Below are positions 4,512 through 63,750 of a stretch of DNA of 64,000 nucleotides, piece after piece. The position numbers and the translations under genes were made by a program. Within the stretch, counting starts at the first letter, position 1; every line of letters begins with the position of its first letter. The stretch spans positions 48,584,843-48,648,842 of the forward strand of contig NC_065538.1 of NCBI RefSeq assembly GCF_932294415.1, written 5' to 3'. This stretch comes from Quercus robur. Its lineage: Eukaryota; Streptophyta; Magnoliopsida; Fagales; Fagaceae. The notes under the pieces were generated by a model. That model ran no database searches and was not told where the DNA came from. It worked only from the letters and a program-made list of their open reading frames with translations.

Positions 4512-6158
4512 ATGTCAGGCTGCTGCAAACGCTGCCGCAGCAATTCCATTGTCCACGACGACACCTCGGCGAACTTGTTCTGCTCCTCGTGCGGCCTCGT
4601 CTCAGAATTCGACGGTTACGATGCCCAGATCGGAGGTCTCAACGGCCCAGAAGGCACCTTTGTCCGTGTCGGCACTTCAGGTACGGGCACTCAATACTCT
4701 TACAAAGAAACCAAAATCTACAATGCCCAAAACCTCATTGATGACATTGTCTACAAGTTTGCTTTATCTCCTTCCAAATCTAGTGACATCAAGACTATGA
4801 TTGCCCAAATAACCGAAAACGAGTTCGGTCAAGGGCATTGGTTCCCAATTCTAATAGGGGCTTGTGCTTATATTGTTATGCGAAAAGATAACAAGTCTTT
4901 GCCCATTGCCGAGGTGGCTTCGGTTGTAGGATGTGACATTTATGAATTAGGTAGGATGTTTGTGCGTGTGGTGGATTTTTTGGGCTTAAAAGGGTCAGAA
5001 GAGTTTCCGGAGTTTGATATTGTTGTGGCGTTCGAGAGGGCATTGAGGAATTGTGGAAAGTTTTCGGGGTTGGGAAGGGATGTTGTTGAGAGAATGCGGA
5101 AACAGGGTGTTTTTTTGATACAATGTGCGGTGCAGTGGTTCTTGACGACGGGGAGGAAGCCGTTGCCAGTGGTGGCAGCCGTGTTGGTTCTGGTGGCAGA
5201 GTTGAATGAGGTGGATTTGAGGATTGAGGATGTGGCGCCGGAGGTTCATGCTGCGGTGTCAACGTGTAAGTCGAGGTATAAGGAGTTGTTGGAATCGCTT
5301 GTGAAGGTTGCGCAAGTGTTGCCTTGGGGGAAGGATGTTACGGTTAAGAATGTTGTTAGGAATGCGCCGTTTGTGATTCAGTATATGGAGAGGAAGTCGA
5401 TGGGGAAGCGTGGTGAGAAGAGGAAGGGGGTAGAGGAGGAGGAGGAGAAGGGTGGTGGGATTGATTTAGGAGATGCGGTGACTGAGAGTTTGAGGAAAAA
5501 TGTTGAGCATGGTACTAGTGGGAATTCTGTGGAAAATGATTCTCTGTATTTTATGGCTGAAGAGAATAGGGGGTTTGTAAGATCTGGGGGTGAGTCTTTT
5601 GATCAGATGAAGATTTCCCATGAATGTTTATCATTGATGTACACTGAATTTTTGAATGAGATGGGTCATGAAAAGTTTATGGAAGGGAGTGGTGAGGTTC
5701 CTCATAGAAAAGGGATGAGAGGGTTTGAGTTCCTTGCATGTAGGGATTGGTGGGAGGGAAAATCAGAGCTGAGCAAAAAGCTTTTACTCAAGCAAATATT
5801 GGAGAAAGATGTAGGATTAGATGCTCTGCCGCCATCATTTGTTAATGGTTGCAAGGTTTATAAGAGAAGGAAAGAAAAGATAAATGCTGCTAAGTTGCGA
5901 ATCAATAGAATTAAGCATCCATTAGGAACTGATTTGGTTGAGAGTGGTGATATTGGCCTTTCAGAATGTGTAAATGCTGGGAAGAAGAGAAAGAGAAAAC
6001 GAGTTAAAGATATTGATTGGGAAGATTTTATCATTGAAGCTCTTCTCCTCCATGAAGTGAAAGAGGAGGAAATTGAGAAAGGGCATTACAATACCTTGCT
6101 GGACTTGCATGTGTTTAATGGAGGAATTTTGCCAGAGGTTCCTGTGTGGAAGGCATGA
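4512..6158 (+). CDS. PTF2: Plant-specific TFIIB-related factor, PTF2/BRP-like
   Basis: A 548-residue intronless protein of the TFIIB/BRF general transcription factor superfamily. An N-terminal zinc ribbon is visible as Cys5-x2-Cys8 and Cys24-x2-Cys27. Two cyclin-like repeats follow, roughly residues 70-165 and 170-275, with the alternating helices expected of a TFIIB core that contacts TBP-DNA and an RNA polymerase. A linker with an acidic run (about 312-321) leads to a long C-terminal part that is basic around KKRKRKRVK and ends in an acidic, hydrophobic segment. That tail is the feature of the plant-specific PTF2 group, which in Arabidopsis is linked to pollen development. The ATG at 4512 places the zinc ribbon at residue 5, the normal position in this family. 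The stop is TGA at 6156-6158. The superfamily is certain; the PTF2 assignment rests on overall architecture and length. Confidence 0.88.
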   Translation: MSGCCKRCRSNSIVHDDTSANLFCSSCGLVSEFDGYDAQIGGLNGPEGTFVRVGTSGTGTQYSYKETKIYNAQNLIDDIVYKFALSPSKSSDIKTMIAQITENEFGQGHWFPILIGACAYIVMRKDNKSLPIAEVASVVGCDIYELGRMFVRVVDFLGLKGSEEFPEFDIVVAFERALRNCGKFSGLGRDVVERMRKQGVFLIQCAVQWFLTTGRKPLPVVAAVLVLVAELNEVDLRIEDVAPEVHAAVSTCKSRYKELLESLVKVAQVLPWGKDVTVKNVVRNAPFVIQYMERKSMGKRGEKRKGVEEEEEKGGGIDLGDAVTESLRKNVEHGTSGNSVENDSLYFMAEENRGFVRSGGESFDQMKISHECLSLMYTEFLNEMGHEKFMEGSGEVPHRKGMRGFEFLACRDWWEGKSELSKKLLLKQILEKDVGLDALPPSFVNGCKVYKRRKEKINAAKLRINRIKHPLGTDLVESGDIGLSECVNAGKKRKRKRVKDIDWEDFIIEALLLHEVKEEEIEKGHYNTLLDLHVFNGGILPEVPVWKA

Positions 6159-7400: not shown

Positions 7401-8360
7401 ACTTCATTTTACTCCATTCTTCAGTTTGAAATTAATTGAGTCTCTTTGATGGTTGTCTAGTTCTTCTTTGAGTGGACTTGATGTGTTTCCAACTCTAATA
7501 CTAGATGTGAAGTATTTCTGGCTCAGATTTGAGTTGAAAGACTAGTTTATAGGGGTGCACTTCTGCATTTATGTAACCAAATCCTTGTTTCATTTGTTTT
7601 AGTTAATGTACATGTTGACAGTTAGGGAGCTTCAAGAGCTCTAGAGTTAATTTTCTTCTTTCCCTTTTTCTTTGGGTGATCCTTTAAATTTTTTTTTTTT
7701 TTTTTTTCTTGTTTGATTGTGGAAATGATTGTTTACTTTATAACTAGTATTATGTCTGGATTGGCTAAAATATAGAGGGGGGCCAGACCAACAACCCTTC
7801 AAGTCTTTTTAGATTCATCCTTGATGATATTTATTTTGTGAAACTTATGGGGACCTTTGAGATTGTTTTCACCTGCTCAGGTTGCCATTTGTAGACTTTA
7901 GTGACTGTTATAAAGGAAGAAGGAATGAATACTTAGCATGTCCTTTCTTTCAACTTCTTCTGGAGTCTCTACTTATCTCACCTTGAGATGCTCATCTCTG
8001 ATTCCTCTCATCACCGATGTCATTTTTCTTGGGCTTTCTATTGTTACTGCTGCTCTTTCTCTCTATTCATGAGGTTTTAGTTTTTTTAAAGTTTAAGTGA
8101 GGTTTGCGGTTTGAGTAGGCTGCCACCTGAATAAACTTCAAAGTAACTTTCAAACAAATGCTAATGAGCCTTTTATTTTTCCCTCTCTTCTTTTTAAAAC
8201 TCTCTCTGCTGTTTGATAGTTGGCATCCCAGAATAAAGAAAAAAGTTGATGGATTCAAACCTTCTCAGCTGGACATGATCAGGAAATCCATTTTAGAATC
8301 TTTCTTTTAAGGAAAGAATGCTTATTCTGGTTAAAATATGAGGATAAACTACTTAGCTCG
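7401..8360. other. Intergenic, nothing recognised
   Basis: AT-rich DNA with poly-T at 7689-7708. No protein-like frame and no repeat boundary seen. Confidence 0.5.
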
Positions 8361-8890
8361 TAGGGGTGAAAAACCCTTGGATTACCCGATAACTGGTTTT
8401 GGTGAGTGGGGTCAGTTGCCTGTAGGAGCTTGATTAATAGTGAGGATTCTTGTATAGTATGTTTTGTGATGTGCAACTAATTTGAGTGAAGTTCTCTTAC
8501 GTCATGAAAAAAAAGAAAAAAAAAAATGTTTCTTCTGCATATGTGTATTATTTTCATGATTTCTAGTGCTACCCAACCCAATTTTCATTGCATAATTATC
8601 AATAACCAATGTTTATTTTCTTTAGCCCATAGGGGTGAAAAACCCTTGGATTACCCGATAACTGGTTCTGGTGGGTGGGGTCAATTGCCTGTAAGAGTTT
8701 GATTAATAGTGAGAATTCTTTGTACAGTATGCTTTGTGATGTGCAACTAATCTGAGTGAAGTTCTCTTACGTCATGAAAAAGAAAAAAAAATGGTTCTTT
8801 TGCGTGTGTATTATTTTCATGATTTCTAGTGCTACCCAACCCAATTTTCACTGCATAATTATCAATGCCCAATGTTTATTTTCTTTTAAT
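8361..8890 (+). repeat. Tandem duplication, about 269 bp x2
   Basis: Unit 1 (8361-8629) and unit 2 (8630-8890) start TAGGGGTGAAAAACCC and stay collinear through TGTTTATTTTCTTT, with scattered substitutions and A-run length differences. They sit downstream of the reverse-strand DUF538 gene. The origin of the unit is not recognised. Confidence 0.9.
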
Positions 8891-9086: not shown

Positions 9087-9515
9087 TTACCTGCCATCAG
9101 CAAATGTCTCGACTGGAAAAGTTTTGATGATGCCAGCAAGGCTCACGAATTGAATTTTTCTGTTGGGTGGGTCGTCAACACTTATTTGGCTAACTGGAGG
9201 CCACAGCATGAGCTCCTTAGCATTGACTCCCTTTAACTTCTTGATCCGCTTCTTCTCAACATAACCAGTCATTTCAGTATAGTAACTCATGAGCTTGCTG
9301 ATCATTTTGAAATTGTGTTTGAATTTCTTCTTCTGCAGGATCCACATGTACCCAGTGCTCCTCACAAAACCAACTTCAATCACGTCAGCAAGAGGGAGAA
9401 GTCCCTGAGGAAGTCCAAACTCTTCAAGGAAAGACACTGCCATTTGCATCCCATCTTGATGGTCCTTCTTGATGATTGCTTCTTCCTTCTCTGCCATGGC
9501 TGATGGAAATACCAA
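9087..9515 (-). CDS. DUF538 family protein
   Basis: A 142-residue protein of the plant DUF538 family. These are small proteins whose Arabidopsis members include SVB (trichome branching and size), and they are often stress-induced; the molecular role is not settled. Family marks are FLEEFGLPQGLLPL followed by a GY-x-WI-x-QKK strand, an internal YGTE-like YTEM strand, the KIKKLKGV-x-AKELMLWPP segment and the final KTFPVETFA. A second Met at residue 7 (9497) begins MAEKEE and fits homologues better, so the true start may be there. No intron is needed for a full-length domain. The stop is TAA, but the codon overlaps a good donor-like AGGTAATA. The family call is firm; start choice and function are open. 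Confidence 0.87.
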   Translation of the reverse strand: MVFPSAMAEKEEAIIKKDHQDGMQMAVSFLEEFGLPQGLLPLADVIEVGFVRSTGYMWILQKKKFKHNFKMISKLMSYYTEMTGYVEKKRIKKLKGVNAKELMLWPPVSQISVDDPPNRKIQFVSLAGIIKTFPVETFADGR

Positions 9516-30155: not shown

Positions 30156-30429
30156 TGTAGATCAAATATGTCTCTATATATTCTATTAACTACTCAACTG
30201 GTCTCCTCAATGTGTTTATCTCCTCCAAAAAGTACTCCAAGCTCACTCGTGTGCAAACTTATGCAACCGTGTGATCACTGGTTTCAGCATAATGTAGATC
30301 AAATATGTCTCTATATATTCTATTAACTACTCAACTAGTCTCCTCAATGTGTTTATCTCCTCCAAAAAGTACTCCAAGCTCACTCGTGTGCAAACTTATG
30401 CAACCGTGTGATCACTGGTTTCAGCATAA
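30156..30429 (+). repeat. Near-identical 137-bp tandem duplication of an LTR-PBS junction
   Basis: Units 30156-30292 and 30293-30429 are almost identical (one G/A difference noted near the middle). Each aligns to the end of the TRIM 5' LTR and its primer-site region at 28918-29010: TCTATAT...ATTA-CTACTCA...CTCCTC and then AAGTACTCCAAGCTCA in place of AAGTGGTATTAGAGCTCA. So this is a diverged fragment of the TRIM family that was later duplicated locally. Confidence 0.8.
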
Positions 30430-31149
30430 TGCATCAAGTGGTTTTATTGGACATATTGCTAGCCCTAGGGTAAGTCTATTACAAGCAACCAAAATTAGAG
30501 TGGCCAACTGGCCATTAAACTTAAAGTTGAATTCGGAGAGTCATATTTAAAAACAAGATCTTTTCCCATAACCTAAATAAGGTAATTTTTTTTAGCTTAC
30601 TTATATGCCCATCCAACCGTCAGTGATCATAAAGATGATGGGGATTGATACACCATTTGGTGAAGATAATAATAAAGGAAGATGTAGATCGATGGCCATT
30701 TTTAAAGTTTATCTCATAGAGTTAATAATGGGTTTTTATTTTAGAAAATTTATAAAGTTAGTGTCTTAGTGATGGTTGGATTTTATATGTTTGGATGCTT
30801 ATAATCAAATAGATTGTTGGTGACTACTTTACAATAATGGTGGGCTATTCCTGCCAATAAAGGATGCTATAAAGTCTCATGGAGACACTCCAGTCCTATT
30901 ATATGCATGCATCCAATGCGCTGCCACAATTTTCGTATTTAATATTTTTAGATATTTAACTTTAAAATAAGTACTTAGAAAAATTATTTTAGAAATTTTT
31001 TATGCACATTACATGGTTGAAATGTACAAGAGAGAAAGATATCCGAATATGGTACACTTGTCATTTTGGGTTTGATATTTAGAGTTTAGGATATTATCTA
31101 TGACTAAAGGTATTTTTTTATATATTTCAATATTATGTTATACTTGTCA

Positions 31150-34901: not shown

Positions 34902-36589
34902 CATTTGCAAAGTCCACTTATTCTCAAAGTTAATATCAAGTCACATAATTTTTTATTTTTTGTATTTGGTGCATTTATTCTTTTTTTGATCCCAAGCCCA
35001 AAAGTTTGTTTGTTTTTTTTTTATAAACAAGCGCAATTTTAATACAAAAGTTTCAATTTCCTAAAAAAAATCGAAAAATTAAAAGTATTAATTTTTTAAA
35101 ACACCAAGAATGCTGATTGAGAAGCCACCTATTCTCAAAGTTTAATATCAAGCCACATAAATTTTTTTGGTGCATCTATTATTTTTTTGAACCCAAGCTC
35201 AAAAGTAAGTATAAAAATAAAAATTTTAAAAAAAAATTGGCACAATGCTAGTACAAAAGTTTCAATATCTAAAAAGAAAAAAAATTAAATAGTATTAATC
35301 TTTTTATATGGGAAAGACTCACGATTGTGAAGTTTTTTTTTTAATGAAAGTTATCAAGTTTTTTTTAATCCTAAAATATAGCCACTTAGTACACATCCAT
35401 AACAAAAGTATGAAATATCTAAAATACAAAAAAATATATATATATATTATTATTATTATTATTATTGAATATCGTACTTAATAATGAAGTAGCGACAGTG
35501 CAATACCAACGTTGCCTCCTATATAATGTTTGCTAGCTGTTTTTCTTATTTTTAATCCTTACTCTTTTTCTCTTTATTTTTTTTTTTTTTTTGTCTCTCT
35601 TTTTTTAGGGTCACATATCAGCAATTTTGTTGAATTACATATTGGGCATATTAGATGAGTTCAGATGAGAGACTTTACAAAAATATTGTATGATTCAAGG
35701 CTCATATAAAGTGGTTGTCATCTATCAAGTGGTTATTTAAGACCTTTTTCTGTATTAAAAAAAATTTATCCTACCTATATCTATATTTATCAATTTGTGT
35801 AATTCTACATTGGATTCAATTTATCGTTTTTTGTAATACTAATGTACGTATCATCATTAATTGAAACTTCTCAGTTTAACTTTATTTTTCACAATCACAT
35901 GTCTTCCATATGAAATTAATTATCCCTAACAATTGTTGTGCCTTTCACTGCAAACCTCTTTTCAGTTTTTACAAGAAATATTTTTAAAATTAAAAGATAC
36001 TATTGCTCATGTGCAAGCTTTTCCCATAAAAAAATTAAAACTATTTATTTTTTTATTTTGCTTTTTAGGCATTTGAAACTTTTGTTATGGATGTGTATTT
36101 AATGGCTACATTTTAGGTCTAAGTGGCTACCTTTTAGGATTGAAAATAACTTGATAAATCTCTATAAAAAAAAAATTAATTTACAATCACGAACCTTTCC
36201 CATACTTTCTCTTGGTAGGAATTTGAAGCTTTTGTTATGCTTGTATACTAAGTTAGGACTAAAAAAGCTTGACAATGTGAGAGGCTTTCCCAAAAATAAT
36301 AATAATAATAATAATATTTTTTATAGATATTTCATACTTTTGTTATGGATGTGTAATAAGTGGCTACATTTTAGGATTAAAAAAAAAACCTTGATAACTC
36401 TTGTTAAAAAAAAAATCACAATCATGAGCCTTTCCCATATAAAAAGATTAATACTGTGTGGGGATTTTCCCACACAAGCTGTTTGTCCTCTTTGGGGAGC
36501 CAAGCCCGCAAGGTTTTGTTATCTGCCCTGAGTGTGGTCTTTGGGATTTTCACCTCAGGCACTTTGGCTGATATTGGCTTGACATCCTA

Positions 36590-36632
36590 GTCCTACATCG
36601 GTTGGAGATGCGCCCCACTCATGGCTTATAAG
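36590..36632 (+). promoter_or_regulatory. snRNA-type promoter, copy 1 (USE + TATA)
   Basis: GTCCTACATCG (36590-36600; one mismatch to the plant upstream sequence element RTCCCACATCG), 24 nt, then CTTATAAG (36625-36632). Confidence 0.45.
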
Positions 36633-36655
36633 CCCTTGGAGCAACCATGAGTGTA

Positions 36656-36813
36656 CCACTACTACACATGTGTAGTAGTGGTAGAGGCGTGCCCCTGGAG
36701 GGTAACAAAGTCGTGCGGGTATCATGTGGTGCGAACATAGCAAAGCTAATCCCACCCTTGCCCCAAAGCGGACAATACTCTTTATGGGGCACATCCCCTC
36801 AAAAGCGCCTTTT
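36656..36813 (+). ncRNA. Predicted short Pol III transcript, copy 1
   Basis: A start 23 nt after the TATA element falls at 36656, exactly where a perfect 26-nt palindrome begins (CCACTACTACACA and its complement, 36656-36681). The following 130 bases contain no run of four T until TTTTT at 36810-36814, a Pol III stop signal. This is a promoter-geometry inference; no transcript evidence exists here. Confidence 0.3.
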
Positions 36814-36948
36814 TGTGTGGGGATTTTCCTACACAAGCTGTTTGTCCGCTTTGGGGAGCCAAGCCCGCACAGTTTTGTTCTCGGCCCCGAATGTGGTCTT
36901 TGGGATTTTCACCTCAGACACTTTGGCTAATATTGGCTTGACACCCTA

Positions 36949-36991
36949 GTCCCACATCGGTTGGAGATGCGCCCCGCTCATGCTTTATATG
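36949..36991 (+). promoter_or_regulatory. snRNA-type promoter, copy 2 (perfect USE + TATA)
   Basis: GTCCCACATCG (36949-36959) matches the plant USE consensus at every base. TTTATATG follows after 24 nt (36984-36991). In plant U6 genes this short USE-TATA spacing specifies RNA polymerase III; Pol II U-snRNA genes have about 10 bp more. Confidence 0.55.
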
Positions 36992-37014
36992 CCCTTGGAG
37001 CTTGCATGAGTGTA

Positions 37015-37127
37015 CCACTACTCCGCACACTCGGGGCCGAGAACAAAACCGTGCGGGCTTGGCTCCCCAAAGCGGACAAACAGCTTGTGCGGGAAAATCC
37101 CCACACAAATACTATTTAATTTTTTTT
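37015..37127 (+). ncRNA. Predicted short Pol III transcript, copy 2
   Basis: The predicted start at 37015 begins CCACTACT, as in copy 1. The span to the T8 run at 37120-37127 has no internal TTTT. Its 3' two thirds is complementary to 36814-36898, upstream of its own promoter. The oligo-T lies just outside the element, in the host arm. Confidence 0.35.
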
Positions 37128-37921
37128 CTTTTTAGATATTTGAAACTTTTGTACTAGAATTGTGCCAGTTTTTATTTTTTTAACCTACTTTTGGGCTTGG
37201 GTTCAAAAAAATAAAAGATGCACCAAAAAAAGTTTATGTGGCTTGATATTAAATTTTGAGAATAGGTGGCCTTCTCAATTAGCATTCTTGGTGTTTTAAA
37301 AAATTAATACTTTTAATTTGTTGGTTTTGTTTTTTTAGGCAATTGAAATTTTTTGTATAGAATTGCACCGATTTATAAAAATAAAATAAAATAAAAACTT
37401 CTAGGTCTATGATCAAAAAAAAAAAAAAATAGATGACCCAAAATACAAAAAATAAAAATTATGTGACTTGATATTAACTTTGAGAATAAGTAGACTTTTT
37501 AAACGGTATTTATTGTGTTTAAAAAAGTTTAATACAATTATAAAAATAACTTCACAACTCCCATTACAAATGAAAAAAAAAAAAAAAATCATAACATGAG
37601 AGCCTCTCCTATAAAAAAAATTAATACTATTTAATAGTTAGGGGTAGGAAATTTCAACCAATTGAGTTATAAGTAATAATTTGCATCAATTATAGTTTGG
37701 AATTACTACATTTTCCAATTACAAAATAGAAAACTAGGGGTGTGATTTTATGAAAAATTATTTCACCCAAAAAGGCATAATGCTCATCACAACCCTAGAT
37801 TTCTTTTTGTGATTAAAAAAATTGTAGTAATCTCAAATTATAATTGATTCAAATTATTAACATTTACCAAAAAAATAGAAAAACCTCTAAATATGTGTGT
37901 GAGCGCGTGCTCAAAAACTAG

Positions 37922-42144: not shown

Positions 42145-43060
42145 CTAGTCTCTAAGCACGCACTCACGCGTATGCTTAAAGGCTCTTTTATTTTTTTCGA
42201 TAAAAGTTAATAATTTACATCAATTATAATATGAGATTATTACATTTTTCAATCACAAAAAATACCTAAAGATGAGATGAGTGTTTTCTGTCTCTTGTCT
42301 TTTATCTTATAAGAAAGGGAAACAAAATAAGATGAATGGTAGAAATTGAAATTTTTGTAATTTCTACTACATACAGGGAGTGGGAGATAGGGGCAGATGT
42401 AGTCAAGTGGATCAAGGCAGTGGATTGTGAATCCACCATGCGCGGGTTTAATTCCCATCATTTGCCCATAAAAATAAATAACATAACTCCTCTTTTTTAT
42501 GCTTTTGTGGGAGAAATAATTTTTTCATCATAATCCTAGGTATTTTTGTGATTGAAAAATGGACAAAATTTAGCTACAAAATTGGTTATAGCCTAAGGCT
42601 ACAACCTTACTCAATAAAATAAATATTACTACATATTTTGAAAATCTAACCATCATTCGTCATACAACTATTTAATTTTGTGTTAATCGGATATTATTTA
42701 CTCTATGATCTATAAACTTATATTTAATGCATAATTTTAAACTACAAAAACTTACAATTTAAATAATTTATAGATAACATAGCTTTTAATTTTTAATTTT
42801 CTAGAAATTTTGTAATTATGGAAAATATAAAAATAAAATGTAATTCAGTGATGAATTTGTTAAATTCACCTCTAATAAAAAGACATTAAAAAAGATTATA
42901 ATTTTAGGCTACAATTAATTTTGTACCTAAACTTTGTTTTTGAAAAATATAATAACCCCAAATTATAATAAAAGTAAATTATTAACTTTTATTAAAAAAA
43001 AAAAAAAAAAAAGTAGGAAAGTCTCGAAGCACAGACGCTTTATGCATGCACTAAGGCTAG
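42145..43060. mobile_element. Second foldback element, loop invaded by organelle DNA
   Basis: Left end CTAGTCTCTAAGCACGC (42145 on) and right end GCATGCACTAAGGCTAG (to 43060) point outward with CTAG on both sides, A before and T after. Subterminal TGAGATTATTACATTTTTCA and its counterpart around TGATTGAAAAAT form the family hairpin. About 215 bp (roughly 42283-42498) in the loop are absent from the related hairpin at 33750-33902 and contain the trnH-like sequence. Ends are inferred by comparison. Confidence 0.5.
42393..42466 (+). pseudogene. trnH-GUG: Organelle-type trnH-GUG, nuclear copy
   Basis: 74 nt with the tRNA-His anticodon GTG in GATTGTGAATC. Acceptor stem GCAGATG/CATTTGC, D arm AAGTGGATCAAGGCAG and T arm CGGGTTTAATTCCC are all recognisable. 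Against the plastid gene as I remember it there are six differences, all C-to-T or G-to-A and mostly at former CpG sites; one turns the T-loop TTC into TTT. Plant mitochondria also carry plastid-derived trnH, so either organelle could be the source. No CCA or nuclear-type context; treated as a transferred relic. Confidence 0.85.
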
Positions 43061-56464: not shown

Positions 56465-57142
56465 TGTGGGGCCCGGCCCAAAAATAATGGGCTATTCCGA
56501 ATTCAGGCCCGTCCGAGGAGCTTCCTGTCCGAAGGGAAACCACATATGAAGCACTACTCAATCCCAATAACGCCAAGGAAACCTGTCCGAGGAGTAACTC
56601 CTCCTCGGACACCACGAATCCCAGACGAGGAACTCTCCAGCTATTTCAGTTCATCCTCCCAACATATAAAATGAATAAAATCCAAAATATCTCATGGAAA
56701 GCTACCACCACATTAATTGCGCCCCAACCACCCCCTTGGCCGCATTAATGAGGAAAAGACACCTGAACAGTACCGCCTTGGCCTCTGCAACTCACAAAGG
56801 GACTGATGAGGGCGTCTGATGGGACAGGTGCTCAAGTAGATGCTTAGATGATCAACAGGTGTAAGGTTGAGATGAGAGGAAGAGAACTATATAATGTAGT
56901 GGAGTCCCTCAAAGAAGGGGACGGAAAAACTGTATAAGGAACTAAAGAAATAGAATCAGGAGAGAGAGATCCATTCATGTGTTTTTATTTCTTTTTGCAA
57001 ACAACACTGTCCATGCATTAGACCGAATAGGTTCACTGAGGCTAAGTTCTTTAACCCATCCTTTACAAACATTTATTGTGGGTTGCGCTTTGGGCCAAGG
57101 CCTGATCAACTGAAGTTGGGTCAGGAAAATCGTGCAACTACA
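56465..57142 (+). repeat. 5' LTR of the Tat element
   Basis: 678 bp, TGTGGGGCCC...CAACTACA. TATA box TATATAAT at 56888-56895. An inverted pair GTCCGAGGAG / CTCCTCGGAC (about 56585-56610) forms a hairpin upstream. Ends two bases before the primer site. Confidence 0.85.
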
Positions 57143-57144
57143 AT

Positions 57145-57162
57145 TGGCGCCGTCTGTGGGGA
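57145..57162 (+). other. Primer-binding site of the Tat element
   Basis: TGGCGCCGTCTGTGGGGA. It begins with the TGG that pairs with tRNA CCA ends and is typical of plant Tat/Athila-type elements. Confidence 0.88.
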
Positions 57163-57195
57163 GAACTAAGGCATCAGCTAGTACAACGGTCGAGC

Positions 57196-58692
57196 ATGGC
57201 AGAGCTAGGCCCGCACCAGGGGGATCCTCACCAAGCTGACTCCCAACGAACACAACCCGCCGAGTCCCAGAGGCAAAATAACCCAACCAACCCAGGCGGC
57301 AGGGGGAATCGTGAGGGAAGCGTGCATACTATCCGGACGAGCCAGAGTCACACTCAGACAGGAAGTCACGTGTCTCAGAGGCGAAATAGTCACCAGGCCA
57401 TGCAGCGAGAGATAGATGACCTAAAAAGGAAGTTACGACGTGTACAGCGAAGACGATCTCCCTCTGACTCAGGCGAGTCTTCTAATGCGGAGGACGTGAG
57501 TTACAGACAAAGGTCAAGGACCCCCCCAAGTGAAACCTTTTCTTACGAAAAGGAACCACGCCCAGTACGGAAGTATAAGAGCCCATCCAGCAAAGGTTCG
57601 GGGAACGACGCCATGAAGAAGGCGCTGGATCAGGTCTCGAGGTCACCCTTCACGAATAGAATCGAAGGGGCTAAGCTGCCAAGACGCTTCAACCAACCGG
57701 TGTTCGCCATCTATAGCAGCAGAACAGACCCGGTAGAGCACGTGAGTCAGTTTAACCAAAAAATGGCGATTTATTCGCAAAACGAAGCCCTAATGTGCAA
57801 GATCTTCCCATCCAGCTTGGGATCGATGGCAATGAGGTGGTTCAACAGCCTGAAGACAAACTCCGTAGGCTCCTACAAGCAGCTCACTCAAGCTTTTTGC
57901 TCCCGTTTTATTACAAACACCAGAGTCCCTCGACCTCTCAGTTCGCTACTATCCTTATCCATGCACGAAGGAGAAACCTTGAAAGCATACTCGGATATGT
58001 ATTGGGAGGTGTATAACGATTTAGATGACAACCATGACAATGTTGCTATCAGCACGTTCAAAAGCGGTCTCCCTACCGAGCATGGCTTAAGGAAATCCCT
58101 CACCGGAAAACCAGTTACTGACGTCCAACAGTTAATGGATAGGATCGACAAGTACAAAAAAGTAGAGGAAGATCAGCTGCAAGGGAGGGGAAAGGAGAAG
58201 GTTATCCACCCCAAAGCAAATGATGTCAGGTCGGAACGTCACAATACTGGTCAGCCGAGGAGAGACTTTCCGCGACAGGCTGGGCAGAGCAACCCGCAAA
58301 CAGTGAATGCCGTGTTCAGAGAGCCAGTACAACAGGTACTGGAGAAAGTAAGGGATGAACCCTATTTCAGGTGGCCGGGAAAGATGGCTGGAGATCCTTC
58401 CAAACGTAACCAGAACCTGTACTGCCACTATCATCAGGACCATGGGCATACTACTGAGGACTGCAAGAATCTGTGGAATCACCTAGATCAATTGGTCCGA
58501 GAAGGAAAGCTACGTCACCTGTTGCACCCATCGAGCGGCCATCCCGACCAAGCAGCACAAGAGCCTCGAAGGGACGTGTCTTTAAGACCCCCCACCGGGA
58601 CGATACATGTCATCCTCGCTGCACCAAGAAGAACCGGGCCACCCATCCCCAGGGTACTAGCTGTTGATCGGCTCCCCTCCGGGGGCAGGTAA
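57196..58692 (+). CDS. gag: gag of the Tat retrotransposon
   Basis: 498 codons. The N-terminal third is Arg/Ser/Gln-rich and disordered-looking. The retrotransposon Gag core, with residues MAMRWFNSL and the FCSRFI motif, lies around residues 170-330. A zinc-knuckle-like CHYHQDHGHTTEDC is near residues 411-424. It forms the virus-like particle and packages RNA. It ends at TAA (58690-58692), but the following protease is in the same frame, so a single Gag-Pol frame was probably cut here by a point change. ATG 57196 is 34 bases after the primer site. Confidence 0.9.
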   Translation: MAELGPHQGDPHQADSQRTQPAESQRQNNPTNPGGRGNREGSVHTIRTSQSHTQTGSHVSQRRNSHQAMQREIDDLKRKLRRVQRRRSPSDSGESSNAEDVSYRQRSRTPPSETFSYEKEPRPVRKYKSPSSKGSGNDAMKKALDQVSRSPFTNRIEGAKLPRRFNQPVFAIYSSRTDPVEHVSQFNQKMAIYSQNEALMCKIFPSSLGSMAMRWFNSLKTNSVGSYKQLTQAFCSRFITNTRVPRPLSSLLSLSMHEGETLKAYSDMYWEVYNDLDDNHDNVAISTFKSGLPTEHGLRKSLTGKPVTDVQQLMDRIDKYKKVEEDQLQGRGKEKVIHPKANDVRSERHNTGQPRRDFPRQAGQSNPQTVNAVFREPVQQVLEKVRDEPYFRWPGKMAGDPSKRNQNLYCHYHQDHGHTTEDCKNLWNHLDQLVREGKLRHLLHPSSGHPDQAAQEPRRDVSLRPPTGTIHVILAAPRRTGPPIPRVLAVDRLPSGGR

Positions 58693-59235
58693 AGGGAGCC
58701 CAAAAGGCCAAAAAAGGGAAGCTCCTTGATGCTGGGATTCTCGGATGAGGATAAAAGAGGAACTATTCAACCTCACGATGATGCCTTGGTGGTCACATTG
58801 CGGATTGGGGGCTTCGATGTGAAAAGGGTGTTAGTAGACTCGGGAAGTGCGGTGGAGATAATGTACCCTGACCTATACAAGGGGCTGAACTTGAAGCCGG
58901 AAGATTTGACAGCTTATGACTCCCCCCTTCTTAGCTTCGAGGGAAGGATTGTTACGCCAAAGGGGCAAATCCGACTGCCCGTACAGACTGGGGCGGAAGT
59001 GGTGGAGGCGAATTTTATCGTGGTCGACGCTTATTCACTTTACACCGCGATAGTTGCAAGGCCATGGATCCACTCCCTAGGGGCCGTGACCTCCACACTT
59101 CACCAAAAAGTAAAATACCCATCCAAAGGACAAGTGGAAGAGATCCGAGGAGATCAGGCCGTGGCCAGGAAGTGTATGGTGGCCGCCATTTTACATCGGC
59201 CCTTAGTCGAGCCCTCGGTCCCAGAGAGCTTATAG
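58693..59235 (+). pseudogene. pro: Retropepsin-like protease segment, same frame as gag
   Basis: Open from the gag stop to TAG 59233-59235; the first Met is at 58726. The aspartic protease active site is LVDSGSAVEIMY, with the flap/strand region following and an IVARPWIH block near the end, as in plant Ty3 elements. The frame is continuous with gag before it and RT after it, so both stops look like interruptions of one polyprotein. The TAG is followed by CAACCA. Confidence 0.85.
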
Positions 59236-59727
59236 CAACCAGCCTCCTCGGCAAGACAAGACGATGGGCCGGCCGAGGAGATAAGGTGTGAAGGTCTAGA
59301 TAAGATTGCTGTCAAAGATGACCCTGAGAAGTTCTTTCAGGTCGGCTCTGAATTGCCCTCTCAAGAAAAGGAGGAACTGGTCAGATTTCTCAGAGAAAAT
59401 GTCGACGTATTCGCATGGGACGCCTACGATGCCCCGGGAGTTGATCCTAGCCTCATTTGTCACCACCTGAATGTCAACCCCTCTTCCACTCCGAGGAAGC
59501 AGCCACCCCGACGCCCTTCAAGGGAACACGCTAGTGCCGTAAGGGACGAAGTGGCGAAATTGAAAAGAGCAGGGGCTATCAAAGAGGTCTTTTATCCCGA
59601 ATGGTTGGCGAACACAGTGGTGGTAAAGAAGAAGACGGGGAAGTGGAGGGTCTGCGTGGACTTCACGGACCTGAACAAGGCGTGCCCCAAGGACCCATTC
59701 CCCTACCCAAAATCGATCGATTGGTAG
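59236..59727 (+). pseudogene. pol: N-terminal reverse transcriptase segment up to frameshift
   Basis: Same frame as gag and pro; the first Met after the stop is at 59353. Contains the WLANTVVVKKK-x-GKWRVC and FTDLNKACPKDPF motifs of the RT fingers. It runs into a stop at 59725-59727 because the C run at 59700-59703 has one base fewer than the reading frame requires. Confidence 0.85.
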
Positions 59728-62549
59728 ATGCAACCGTGGGGCACCCTCGAATGAGTTTCCTGGACGCCTTCCAGGGCTATCATCAGATACCCCTTACGCT
59801 AGAGGACCAAGAGAAAACGGCTTTCATGACGCCCATCGGAAATTATCATTATAAGGTGATGCCGTTCGGGCTAAAGAACGCGGGCTCAACCTACCAAAGG
59901 ATGATGACTCGGATGTTCGAGCCACAGCTGGGCAAGATCATTGAGGTTTATATAGACGATATGGTTGTGAAGAGTAAAAAGGTGTCCGAGCACGTGAAAG
60001 ACCTCGGAACAGTCTTCGCTATCTTAAGGGAGCACCGGTTGCGGCTGAATGCCTCCAAATGTTCATTCGGGGTCGGGTCTGGGAAATTCCTAGGGTACAT
60101 GGTCACCCACAGGGGAATAGAAGTAAGTCCCGACCAAATCAAAGCCATTAACAGCCTACAGACTCCTAGGAACCCGAAGGAGGTGCAGAAGCTCACTGGC
60201 ATGATTGCGGCATTAAACCGGTTCATATCGCGATCGGCGGATCGATGTCGGCCTTTTTACCTCCTGATAAACAAGTGGAAAGAGTTCGAATGGTCGGAGG
60301 ATTGCGTTCAGGCTTTCCAGCAGCTTAAGGACTACCTGTCCCGACCACCCATCATGTCCAGTCCTGAGGCAGATGAGGTGCTGTTTGCCTACATCGCCGT
60401 AGCTCCCCACGCTGTAAGCCTGGTACTTATACGGGATGATAATGGGGTGCAGCGACCGGTGTACTATGTGAGCAAATCACTACATGAGGCCGAGGTGCGA
60501 TACCTACCTTTAGAAAAGGCAATTCTGGCGATAGTGCATGCAACCCGGAAGCTTCCTCATTACTTCCAGGCGCATACGGTCATCGTTCTAACTCAGCTTC
60601 CCCTTCGAGCCGTTCTTCGAAGCGTTGACTACACAGGAAGGATCGCCATGTGGAGTGCTCTTTTGGGGGCTTTTGATATTAAATATATGCCCAGACCCTC
60701 CGTCAAAGGACAGGTCCTCGCAGATTTGGTAGCGGAGTTTGCTGAGCCCTCTATAGAAACAATGACCGAGAAGAAAGACCTGGGTGGAAAATTGGTTGGC
60801 GCAATTTCAGCAGGGGAGACCATGCGTTGGAAGGTCTACGTGGATGGCGCGGCCAACCAGAGAGGATCAGGAGTGGGGATAGTTTTAATATCGCCGGACG
60901 GCGCTGCCATTGAAAAATCGTTAAGACTCGGATTCTCGGCTACGAACAACGAAGCCGAGTACGAAGCCTTGCTTCAAGGGATGGCGATGGTTCAAAGATT
61001 GGGTGGAAGAATAATAGAAGCATTCTCGGACTCCAGATTAGTGGTCGGACAAGTGATGGGCGAGCTTGAAGCTCGAGATACTAGGATGCAAGAGTACCTG
61101 GGACAAGTCAAACGGCTACAGACGAGTTTTGAATCCTTCAGTCTGACGCACATTTCCAGGAGCATAAACACCCATGCAGACTCGCTGGCCACTCTCGCCA
61201 CGTCCTCGGCGCATAATCTGCCGCGAATGATCCTCGTTGAAGATCTATCACAGGCAAGTCCCATCTGCAGAAACTCGGCTCAAGTCCATCAGATCGGAAA
61301 AAGTCCCAGCTGGATGGATCCCATAAAGAGCTTCCTCCAAAACGACATCTTACCGGAGGAAAAACTGGAAGCCGAAAAGATACGCAGGAATGCTCCTCGG
61401 TTCTGGCTATCAGAGGACCACAAACTATATCGACGCTCTTACTCTGGGCCGTACCTACTCTGCATACATCCAGAAGAGTCCGAGTCTTTACTTGAGGAGT
61501 TGCACGAGGGGATTTGCGGAAGCCACACCGGAGGAAGGTCGCTGGCGCACAGGGCACTCACCCAAGGATACTGGTGGCCGAACATGCAAAGAGAGGCCCA
61601 AGAATACGCTAAGAAGTGCGACCAGTGCCAAAGATTCGCCCCGAATATCCACCAATCCGGAGGGGTTCTCAACCCCCTGTCTAGCCCATGGCCGTTCGCA
61701 CAATGGGGCCTTGATATAGTCGGTCCTTTCCCCAAAGCTGTGGGGAACAAGCGATACATAATAGTCGGAACTGATTACTTCACTAAATGGGTGGAAGCTG
61801 AACCCTTGGCCAACATTAGGGACGTGGACGCCCAAAAATTCATCTGGAAGAACATCATCACCCGCTTCGGGACTCCGCGTATACTCATTTCCGACAATGG
61901 TCTGCAGTTCGACAGTAAGAACTTTAGGGAGTATTGCCGCGAGTTTGGAATCATTAACCGATATTCCACCCCCGCCTACCCTCAAGGAAATGGGCAGGTC
62001 GAGGCCGTGAACAAGGTCATAGTGAACGGACTAAAGAAGAGACTGGACGAGGCAAAGGGGAGATGGGCAGAAGAACTCCCCCACGTCTTATGGACTTATC
62101 GGATGACGCCACGACGATCGACCGGTGAGACCCCCTTCTCGATGACTTATGGGGCTGAGGTCGTGCTCCCGATCGAGAACAACTTTCCCACGCTAAGGTC
62201 TAAATTGTTTACCCCAAACGATAACAACGAGTTATTGGAACGGAGTCTGGACCTGGCTGAAGAAAGAAGGGAAAAAGCGATGATTCATATGGCCTATTAT
62301 CACCAGAAGCTGAGACAGGGGTATGATGCTAATGTCAAACTGCGGCCTCTGGGTCCAGGTGATCTCGTGATGAGAAAGATTCTTGGCAGCGCAAAGAACC
62401 CCTCTTGGGGCAAGTTGGGGCCCAATTGGGAGGGACCATACCGTGTCACATCCGTGGCCGGAATAGGCGCCTATTACCTAGAAGATTTGGATGAAAAAGC
62501 TGTACCCCGACCATGGAATGTAAATAATCTCAGAAGATATTGTTATTAA
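59700..62549 (+). pseudogene. pol: RT, dual RNase H and integrase of the Tat element
   Basis: The frame continuing after the 1-base loss. RT palm motifs are FLDAFQGYHQI, MPFGLKNAGSTYQR and the catalytic YIDD (59949-59960). A first RNase H (about 60380-60745) lacks the usual first Asp. A second one begins YVDGAANQRGSG (about 60837), with DSRLVV and HADSLA, and is the active-looking archaeal-type domain of Tat elements. Integrase has an HHCC finger (ending KKCDQCQ, 61613-61633) and the DDE triad in GLDIVGPF, ISDNGLQFD and GQVEAVN. An open frame from Met 59601 reads this phase, but its first 33 codons are out of frame. Stop TAA at 62547-62549. Confidence 0.9.
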
Positions 62550-62616: not shown

Positions 62617-63750
62617 ATAAGTTTTAAACAGAACCTAAGTCCTGCATGGCTCCTCGGACCACAGACTTAGGGGAAGTTAATACTTAAGGCAATCAACCGT
62701 AAGTTTTGGACAGAACCAAGGCCTTGCATGGTCCTCGGACTCAAGCCTATGGGGAAACCAAATACACGAAAGAAAAACCATGAGTTTTGGACAGAACCAA
62801 GGCCTTGCATGGTCCTCGGACTCAAGCCTATGGGGAAACCAAATACACGAAAGAAAAACCGTAAGTTTTGGACAGAACCAAGGCCTTGCATGGTCCTCGG
62901 ACTCAAGCCTATGGGGAAACCAAGTACACAAGAAAAACCATAAGTTTTAAACAGAACCTCAGTCCTGCATGGCTCCTCGGACCACAGACTTAGGGGAAGT
63001 TAATACTTAAGGCAACCAACCGTAAGTTTTGGACAGAACCAAGGCCTTGCATGGTCCTCGGACTCAAGCCTATGGGGAAACCAAATACACGAAAGAAAAA
63101 CCATGAGTTTTAGACAGAACCAAGGCCTTGCATGGTCCTCGGACTCAAGCCTATGGGGAAACCAAATACACGAAAGAAAAACCGTAAGTTTTGGACAGAA
63201 CCAAGGCCTTGCATGGTCCTCGGACTCAAGCCTATGGGGAAACCAAGTACACAAGAAAAACCATAAGTTTTAAACAGAACCTCAGTCCTGCATGGCTCCT
63301 CGGACCACAGACTTAGGGGAAATTAATACTTAAGGCAACCGACCGTAAGTTTTGGACAGAACCAAGGCCTTGCATGGTCCTCGGACTCAAGCCTATGGGG
63401 AAACCAAATACACGAAAGAAAAACCATGAGTTTTGGACAGAACCAAGGCCTTGCATGGTCCTCCGACTCAAGCCTATGGGGAAACCAAATACACGAAAGA
63501 AAAACCATAAGTTTTGGACAGAACCAAGGCCTTGCATGGTCCTCGGACTCAAGCCTATGGGGAAACCAAGTACACAAGAAAAACCATAAGTTTTAAACAG
63601 AACCTAAGTCCTGCATGGCTCCTCGGACCACAGACTTAGGGGAAATTAATACTTAAGGCAACTATTCATAAGTCTTAAACAGAACCTAAGTCATGCATGG
63701 TCCCTCGGACCACAGACTTAGGGGAAATTATTACTTATGATAGATTGGGA
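62617..63750 (+). repeat. Higher-order tandem repeat, 323-bp period of four ~81-bp units
   Basis: Type B units (AAACAGAACCT...CTCCTCGGACCACAGAC) start at 62617, 62940, 63263 and 63586, exactly 323 bp apart. Each is followed by three type A units (GGACAGAACCAAGGCCTTGC...GGTCCTCGGACTCAAGCC). The third A unit in every block has the shorter ending CCAAGTACACAAGAAAAACC. Three full blocks are followed by a lone B unit and a diverged B-like unit (to about 63750). The open frames on both strands here are by-products of the period. Confidence 0.93.

Follow-up and report, generated by a model that had tools for sequence, protein, structure and literature searches.

A candidate fold-back element of Quercus robur with predicted U6-like Pol III promoters

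What kind of mobile DNA would carry a U6-like promoter of its own? The question is raised by a short insertion in the stretch of Quercus robur DNA analyzed here (64 kb in length; hereafter, the window), which the first-pass annotation had described as a compact mobile element with two U6-like promoters and predicted short RNAs. We consider it moderately probable that the insertion is a non-autonomous fold-back element with predicted type-3 Pol III promoters and a putative RNA of about 157 nt. The argument starts from features that can be read directly in the sequence, namely, the insertion, its ends, the duplications, the dispersal, the shuffling of modules, the fixed promoter spacing, and the T-run that ends the middle segment (mid). 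The coordinates of the window copy are collected in Table 1.

Table 1. Features of the window copy, including its predicted promoters and RNAs (positions within the window)
Feature	Position	Strand	Remark
Left target-site duplication	36450..36454	unstranded	AATAC
Element copy L001	36455..37107		653 bp; starts TGTGTGGGG, ends CCCCACACA; direct reading
Unit A	36455..36668	+	214 nt: inverted end, subterminal part, promoter 1
USE 1	36591..36600	+	TCCTACATCG; one mismatch to TCCCACATCG
Hairpin enclosing TATA 1	36616..36653	+	CACTCATGG..CCATGAGTG
TATA 1	36625..36630	+	CTTATA; 24 nt after USE 1
Predicted Pol III RNA 1	36653..36814	+	would start at GTACC 28 nt after TATA start and end in T5 36810-36814
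Perfect palindrome	36654..36683	+	30 nt; head-to-head unit junction; 5' hairpin of predicted RNA 1
Mid	36669..36813	+	145 nt; ends in CGCCTTTT (T4/T5); no Rfam family at curated cut-off
Unit A'	36814..37027	+	repeats unit A in direct orientation (90% identity); other TATA-hairpin type
USE 2	36949..36959	+	GTCCCACATCG; perfect RTCCCACATCG
Hairpin enclosing TATA 2	36975..37012	+	CGCTCATGC..GCATGAGTG
TATA 2	36984..36989	+	TTTATA; 24 nt after USE 2
Predicted Pol III RNA 2	37012..37127	+	would run through the inverted tail into flanking T8
Right-end inverted copy of unit positions 1-82	37026..37107	+	82 nt
Right target-site duplication	37108..37112	unstranded	AATAC

The AATAC duplications, the inverted ends, and the limits of the element, as first described, were all exact on re-reading, and comparison with the surrounding DNA demonstrates that this segment is the insertion of a mobile element in a host repeat cluster. 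On both sides (35980-36450 and 37113-37640), the element is surrounded by clustered, diverged repeats of a single AT-rich block, which provide natural empty sites. Three sister repeats in the window lack the element and can be aligned across the insertion point (36016-36085, 37297-37365, and 37584-37635), with empty-site scores of 83, 61, and 63, respectively, whereas none of about 500 random window stretches scored above 36; two further sister stretches that were aligned along with them do not reach across the insertion site. The sister at 37584-37635, which crosses the junction by 8 nt only, contains AATAC once, with the same TATTTAAT after it, and the one at 36016-36085 has AAAAC in place of AATAC.

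To assess how far the element has spread is to ask about lower bounds, since 40 of the 397 first-look candidates from the search of its own genome (786 Mb) were scored. That search gave at least 151 matches, and those listed were grouped into at least 40 places, 21 of which were read (the window copy and L009 to L028). Related copies with TGT..ACA ends and exact 5-bp duplications, the genome-wide check that had been proposed for this element, were found in 6 of the 21 places. The six duplications are all different (AATAC, AGTAT, AGAGT, ATAAT, ATATA, and ATAGT), and the copies that they bound measure 653, 558, 823, 784, 431, and 362 bp. As controls, 18 shifted offsets gave zero to two places each among the 21, and at the same ends duplications of 3 bp were seen in two places and those of 4 or 6 to 9 bp in none. 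By eye, L011 and L022 have near or differently bounded duplications and stand outside the count of six; the same scan found no duplication in the remaining 13 places. The G+C content is 53% in the window copy and 22% in the flanks (100 nt each) pooled over the six bounded copies. These differing duplications, together with the sister empty sites, back the past mobility of what had been called a transposable unit.

Inverted terminal repeats of 28 to 251 nt (ungapped, with at most 15% mismatch) bound five of these six copies, and one of 7 nt bounds L010, so that inverted ends at the duplication-bounded termini occur together with a target duplication fixed at 5 bp, as in terminal-inverted-repeat and fold-back elements. 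Across the places that were read, a unit may stand alone (L028), face another unit in an inverted head-to-head pair, or be joined to mid, and the order varies widely; L027 is close to one single palindrome of 362 bp. Hence, the mobility and the promoter pair of the initial description stand, while its fixed two-promoter layout gives way to a modular fold-back family with shuffled modules. The window copy itself contains both types of TATA hairpin, CATGG..CCATG in unit A and CATGC..GCATG in unit A'. In addition, a stretch of 44 nt near the end of mid (36761-36804) shows 70% complementarity to 36813-36856, where unit A' starts, and mid may be a diverged inverted half-unit instead of an RNA gene. 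As a whole, the family appears to be a dispersed, non-autonomous, fold-back (long inverted-end) group of DNA-transposon-like elements that makes 5-bp target duplications.

In its sequence, the repeat module is laid out like a type-3 (U6-like) Pol III promoter of plants, in which USE, 24 nt, and TATA are followed by GTACC 28 nt after the TATA start. Both predicted promoters of the first-pass annotation are present (36591-36630 and 36950-36989); the USE of the second copy matches RTCCCACATCG perfectly, as had been claimed, and that of the first copy departs from it by one mismatch. The pattern TCCYACATCG-24-YTTATA, which was fitted to these two copies with its Y letters picked after both had been seen, has six matches with up to three mismatches in the window against 1.66 +/- 1.31 expected, and 0 of 100 shuffles reached six; the element's two promoters are its sole zero-mismatch matches there. 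USE alone at one mismatch is unexceptional in the window (2 found; at least 2 in 14 of 100 shuffles). It is the combination of USE with TATA and its recurrence across copies, rather than USE alone, that is exceptional.

An Arabidopsis U6 promoter has the same 24-nt spacing between USE and TATA. Comparison of this spacing across the oak copies, which had been put forward as a check, revealed that, of 43 USE-like sites in the 21 places (one mismatch allowed), 40 are followed by a TATA-like box exactly 24 nt on, and the other three have no TATA within 56 nt; USE and TATA therefore stand at the fixed, short spacing of a type-3 Pol III promoter. GTACC follows exactly 28 nt after the TATA start in 35 of these 40 promoters and is absent there in 5. 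According to the excerpted text of the sources, the plant USE is RTCCCACATCG and, in snRNA genes transcribed by Pol III, is one helical turn closer to TATA than in those of Pol II (PMC9845283), the USE-TATA spacing determines Pol III recognition (PMC11961915), and the TATA of soybean U6 genes is GTTTATA (PMC4448504). GTTTATA occurs in 14 of 34 oak promoters, and TTTATA in 26 of 34. The promoter alignment (A2) holds 34 of the 40 promoters, without L009 at 994, L013 at 1203, L021 at 451, both of L023, and L026 minus 1074; most of the promoters outside it are truncated or altered, and L023 at 881 looked intact. Because every segment of A2 was excised at a constant offset from USE, the gap-free state of this alignment proves little.

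As the copies are related, the fixed spacing may partly reflect shared descent, and the promoter may then be a passenger, captured by an ancestor as a U6-type upstream stretch and kept by recent shared ancestry, with Pol III transcription being irrelevant. We regard this explanation as doubtful, although part of the evidence fits it. The 34 units that aligned over more than 150 nt, a requirement that leaves the most diverged promoter modules outside the set, are 78 to 100% identical to unit A, and their spacing may simply be inherited. Majority-base conservation in these units is 0.97 in USE, 0.98 in TATA, 0.94 in the linker, 0.92 downstream, and 0.86 upstream; GAGATGCGCC, part of the linker, and ACCACTACTA, which follows the start, are as well kept as TATA (0.98 each), and positions 31 to 50 of the end region reach 0.95 to 0.96. 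Relative to unit A, which is itself deviant in both USE and TATA, the substitution rates are in no deficit in these two elements (0.126 and 0.152, against 0.126 upstream) and are no lower than in some neighboring blocks. Base substitution by itself does not set USE and TATA apart from the neighboring blocks. The distribution of gaps argues the other way: gap letters fall between the USE start and the TATA end in 0 of the 34 units, between TATA and the start in 1, and upstream of USE in 30, in counts where gaps shared by descent enter many times over. Moreover, the most diverged modules (L010 minus 503, L021 at 451, and L026 at 1027) retain the 24-nt spacing.

TATA is also enclosed by a short hairpin. 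Its 9-bp stem is paired in 92.4% of cells (34 of the 40 promoters, 19 distinct rows), compared with 23 to 52% in slid versions, and 9 cells are changed on both sides; in 500 shuffles, none attained this paired share, this count of double-change cells, or the covariation score of the stem. Two other measures are unexceptional, namely, how many pairs contain a double change (2; 130 of 500 shuffles) and how many pair types occur (4; 497 of 500 shuffles). When the arms of 17 distinct rows were scored freely, arms of the same copy gave a mean of 9.7 and those of different copies 7.8 (shuffled 99th percentile, 7.5; maximum, 10). In the L010/L026 type of hairpin, both arms differ in sequence and the pairing is kept. 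Since the 3' arm extends just to the predicted start, the hairpin would be outside the Pol III RNA, and it may act as DNA or may be a by-product of copying between palindrome arms.

Downstream of the predicted starts, both stretches had been described as free of T4 up to an oligo-T, and the first T4 is indeed the T5 at 36810-36814 and the T8 at 37120-37127, respectively; a T4-free stretch of such length is not unusual by itself. Of these two ends, the putative terminator of RNA 1 lies inside the element, as proposed, while the T8 of RNA 2 belongs to the host DNA that follows the right end. Across the family, a promoter stands directly upstream of mid in 9 of 23 mid rows, and the first T4 comes 153 to 159 nt after the predicted start in eight of them and 176 nt after it in the ninth, L011, where the center of mid is replaced. 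The other 14 mid rows start at unrelated DNA (4), follow or face another mid (5), stand behind an inverted unit (2) or a unit fragment (1), are unassigned (1), or represent a tail match (1). Six rows of the first-T4 scan meet a T4 already 2 to 52 nt past the predicted start. Mid ends in at least T4 in all 17 aligned rows that reach its end, and likewise in 3 partial rows outside the alignment, among rows whose selection by similarity up to the T-ending end of mid favors a kept T-run. This alignment (A1) comprises 19 of the 23 rows, without two of L013, one of L017, and one of L025.

The RNA spanning 36654-36814 has a folding z of -4.89, helped by the 30-nt palindrome that forms its 5' hairpin. 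Mid alone is weakly more stable than shuffles (z of -0.03 to -2.65 in 19 rows; -0.03 to -2.11 for the antisense), and RNAalifold on mid gave 23 pairs, 2 of them with changes on both sides, and a covariation term of +0.65. A strongly structured or conserved RNA fold in mid was rejected on these weak z-scores and this covariation term, and our claim is accordingly limited to the layout of promoter and terminator. A known RNA gene in mid was likewise rejected, with no Rfam family at cut-off in the element or in L002 to L008; permissive Rfam scans of 36300-37300 and of 14 loci gave sub-cut-off matches only. Both the weak folding and the scans that returned no RNA family at cut-off are what a passenger promoter would lead one to expect.

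A different origin, which we judge improbable, would be that of a TRIMp3-like element, a TRIM that carries a Pol III promoter and was inserted by a retroelement integrase, its inverted forms arising from aberrant reverse transcription. Units A and A' are direct repeats, and TGT..ACA ends with 5 bp are also compatible with an LTR integrase; TG..CA-type ends with 5-bp duplications are found in plant Helenus TRIMs, as described in excerpts of PMC10886601. However, the repeats at the duplication-bounded ends are inverted over the lengths given above, unit A' stops short of the right end, and by eye no purine tract precedes unit A' in the window. TRIM or TRIMp3 membership was rejected because the terminal repeats are not direct, the ends being inverted in the window copy and in five of the six bounded copies. 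Copies embedded in a longer known LTR had been named as evidence that would overturn the initial description; the six duplication-bounded copies stop at their own TGT..ACA ends, which argues against the view that they are internal segments of some longer LTR element. The 5-bp duplications and inverted ends also speak against a SINE. Finally, that the fold-back itself is functional, with read-through hairpins feeding a small-interfering-RNA or microRNA pathway and USE-TATA incidental or serving only that, seems very improbable: the long palindromes, the z of the RNA that includes the 5' hairpin, and sub-threshold matches to microRNA precursor models are in its favor, but those matches are below gathering scores and look generic to hairpins.

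Returning to a fold-back element with predicted type-3 promoters, we propose the following course of events. A USE-binding complex and TBP would recruit Pol III, with starts near 36653 and 37012. RNA 1 would consist of the hairpin and mid, about 157 nt, and would end at the T5 that immediately precedes the next TGTGTGGGG end. Movement of the element would occur in trans, by some transposase or integrase that recognizes the TGT..GGGG ends. In the step that we prefer, and that is the least certain, Pol III occupancy would hold the palindromic DNA open to the mobilizing enzyme, and modules with an intact promoter would thereby multiply best. Why a DNA element would keep a promoter is a matter of guesswork, whether for open DNA offered to the enzyme or for a useful RNA. 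It is quite unlikely, in our estimate, that the snRNA-type Pol III gene is the amplifying module in the full sense, with the U6-like promoter and the terminated RNA needed for mobility and the TATA hairpin coupling transcription to transposition.

Several other features were noted in the window. On the plus strand at 4512-6155, there is an open frame of 548 aa with a Pfam TFIIB repeat, a TFIIB zinc ribbon, and a BRF2-like C-terminal cyclin repeat at cut-offs; its nearness to the element is probably due to chance. A full DUF538 domain is contained in an open frame at 9087-9512 on the minus strand. ARAGORN placed a tRNA-His (GTG) at 42393-42467 (plus strand), which, as tRNA (42393-42466), is the only Rfam match at cut-off in the window. 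At 57106-62549 (plus strand), LTR-retrotransposon gag and pol are split over several frames, in an order of reverse transcriptase, RNase H, and integrase that we take to be of the gypsy type, and just downstream of these frames a tandem array (62617-63737) has a basic period of 81 nt and a further period of 323 nt at 97% matches. Tandem duplications also occur at 8353-8886, 30156-30431, and 1002-1199, with periods of 269, 137, and 101 nt and 90, 99, and 96% matches, respectively.

If active, the element would be jumping DNA equipped with a small-RNA gene of its own. The family would scatter ready-made U6-type promoters in a plant genome, from which new small-RNA genes might arise and which would be a trap for automatic U6 promoter mining. 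In the open-access literature (titles and the starts of abstracts), we found no plant element with a USE-TATA promoter and no named class of such a design, which, on this coverage, is weak evidence of absence. As far as we know, the Pol III promoters that mobile elements use (tRNA, 5S, or 7SL) are inside the transcribed part and travel with the RNA copy. A DNA element would not lose an external promoter, and the family would represent such a route in use.

Among known systems, fold-back transposons (Drosophila FB, Galileo, Tetris, and plant families) have long inverted ends, repeated inner modules, and structural shuffling, as does the oak family. The lengths of their target duplications differ from the 5 bp found here, and we know of no fold-back family with an snRNA-type promoter. 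Plant MITEs resemble the element in shortness, non-coding content, and inverted ends, but their common superfamilies make duplications of 2, 3, 8, or 9 to 11 bp instead of 5. Plant U6 and U3 snRNA promoters, as given in excerpts of three sources (PMC9845283, PMC4448504, PMC12889822), share with the element the USE (RTCCCACATCG), a TATA at about -30, the short Pol III spacing, a start at G, and an end in a T-run. In contrast to U6 and U3 genes, the promoter here is inside a repeated mobile element, with no U6 or other Rfam RNA at cut-off. The nearest published idea that we found is that of the TRIMp3 elements Cassandra, Helenus, and Ajax, which, in the excerpted text of PMC10886601, are likewise short non-coding mobile DNAs with a Pol III promoter, the plant element Helenus making 5-bp duplications. 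TRIMp3 are LTR elements with promoters derived from 5S rRNA or tRNA (PMC10886601, excerpts), whereas the element described here has inverted ends and a promoter of the external type.
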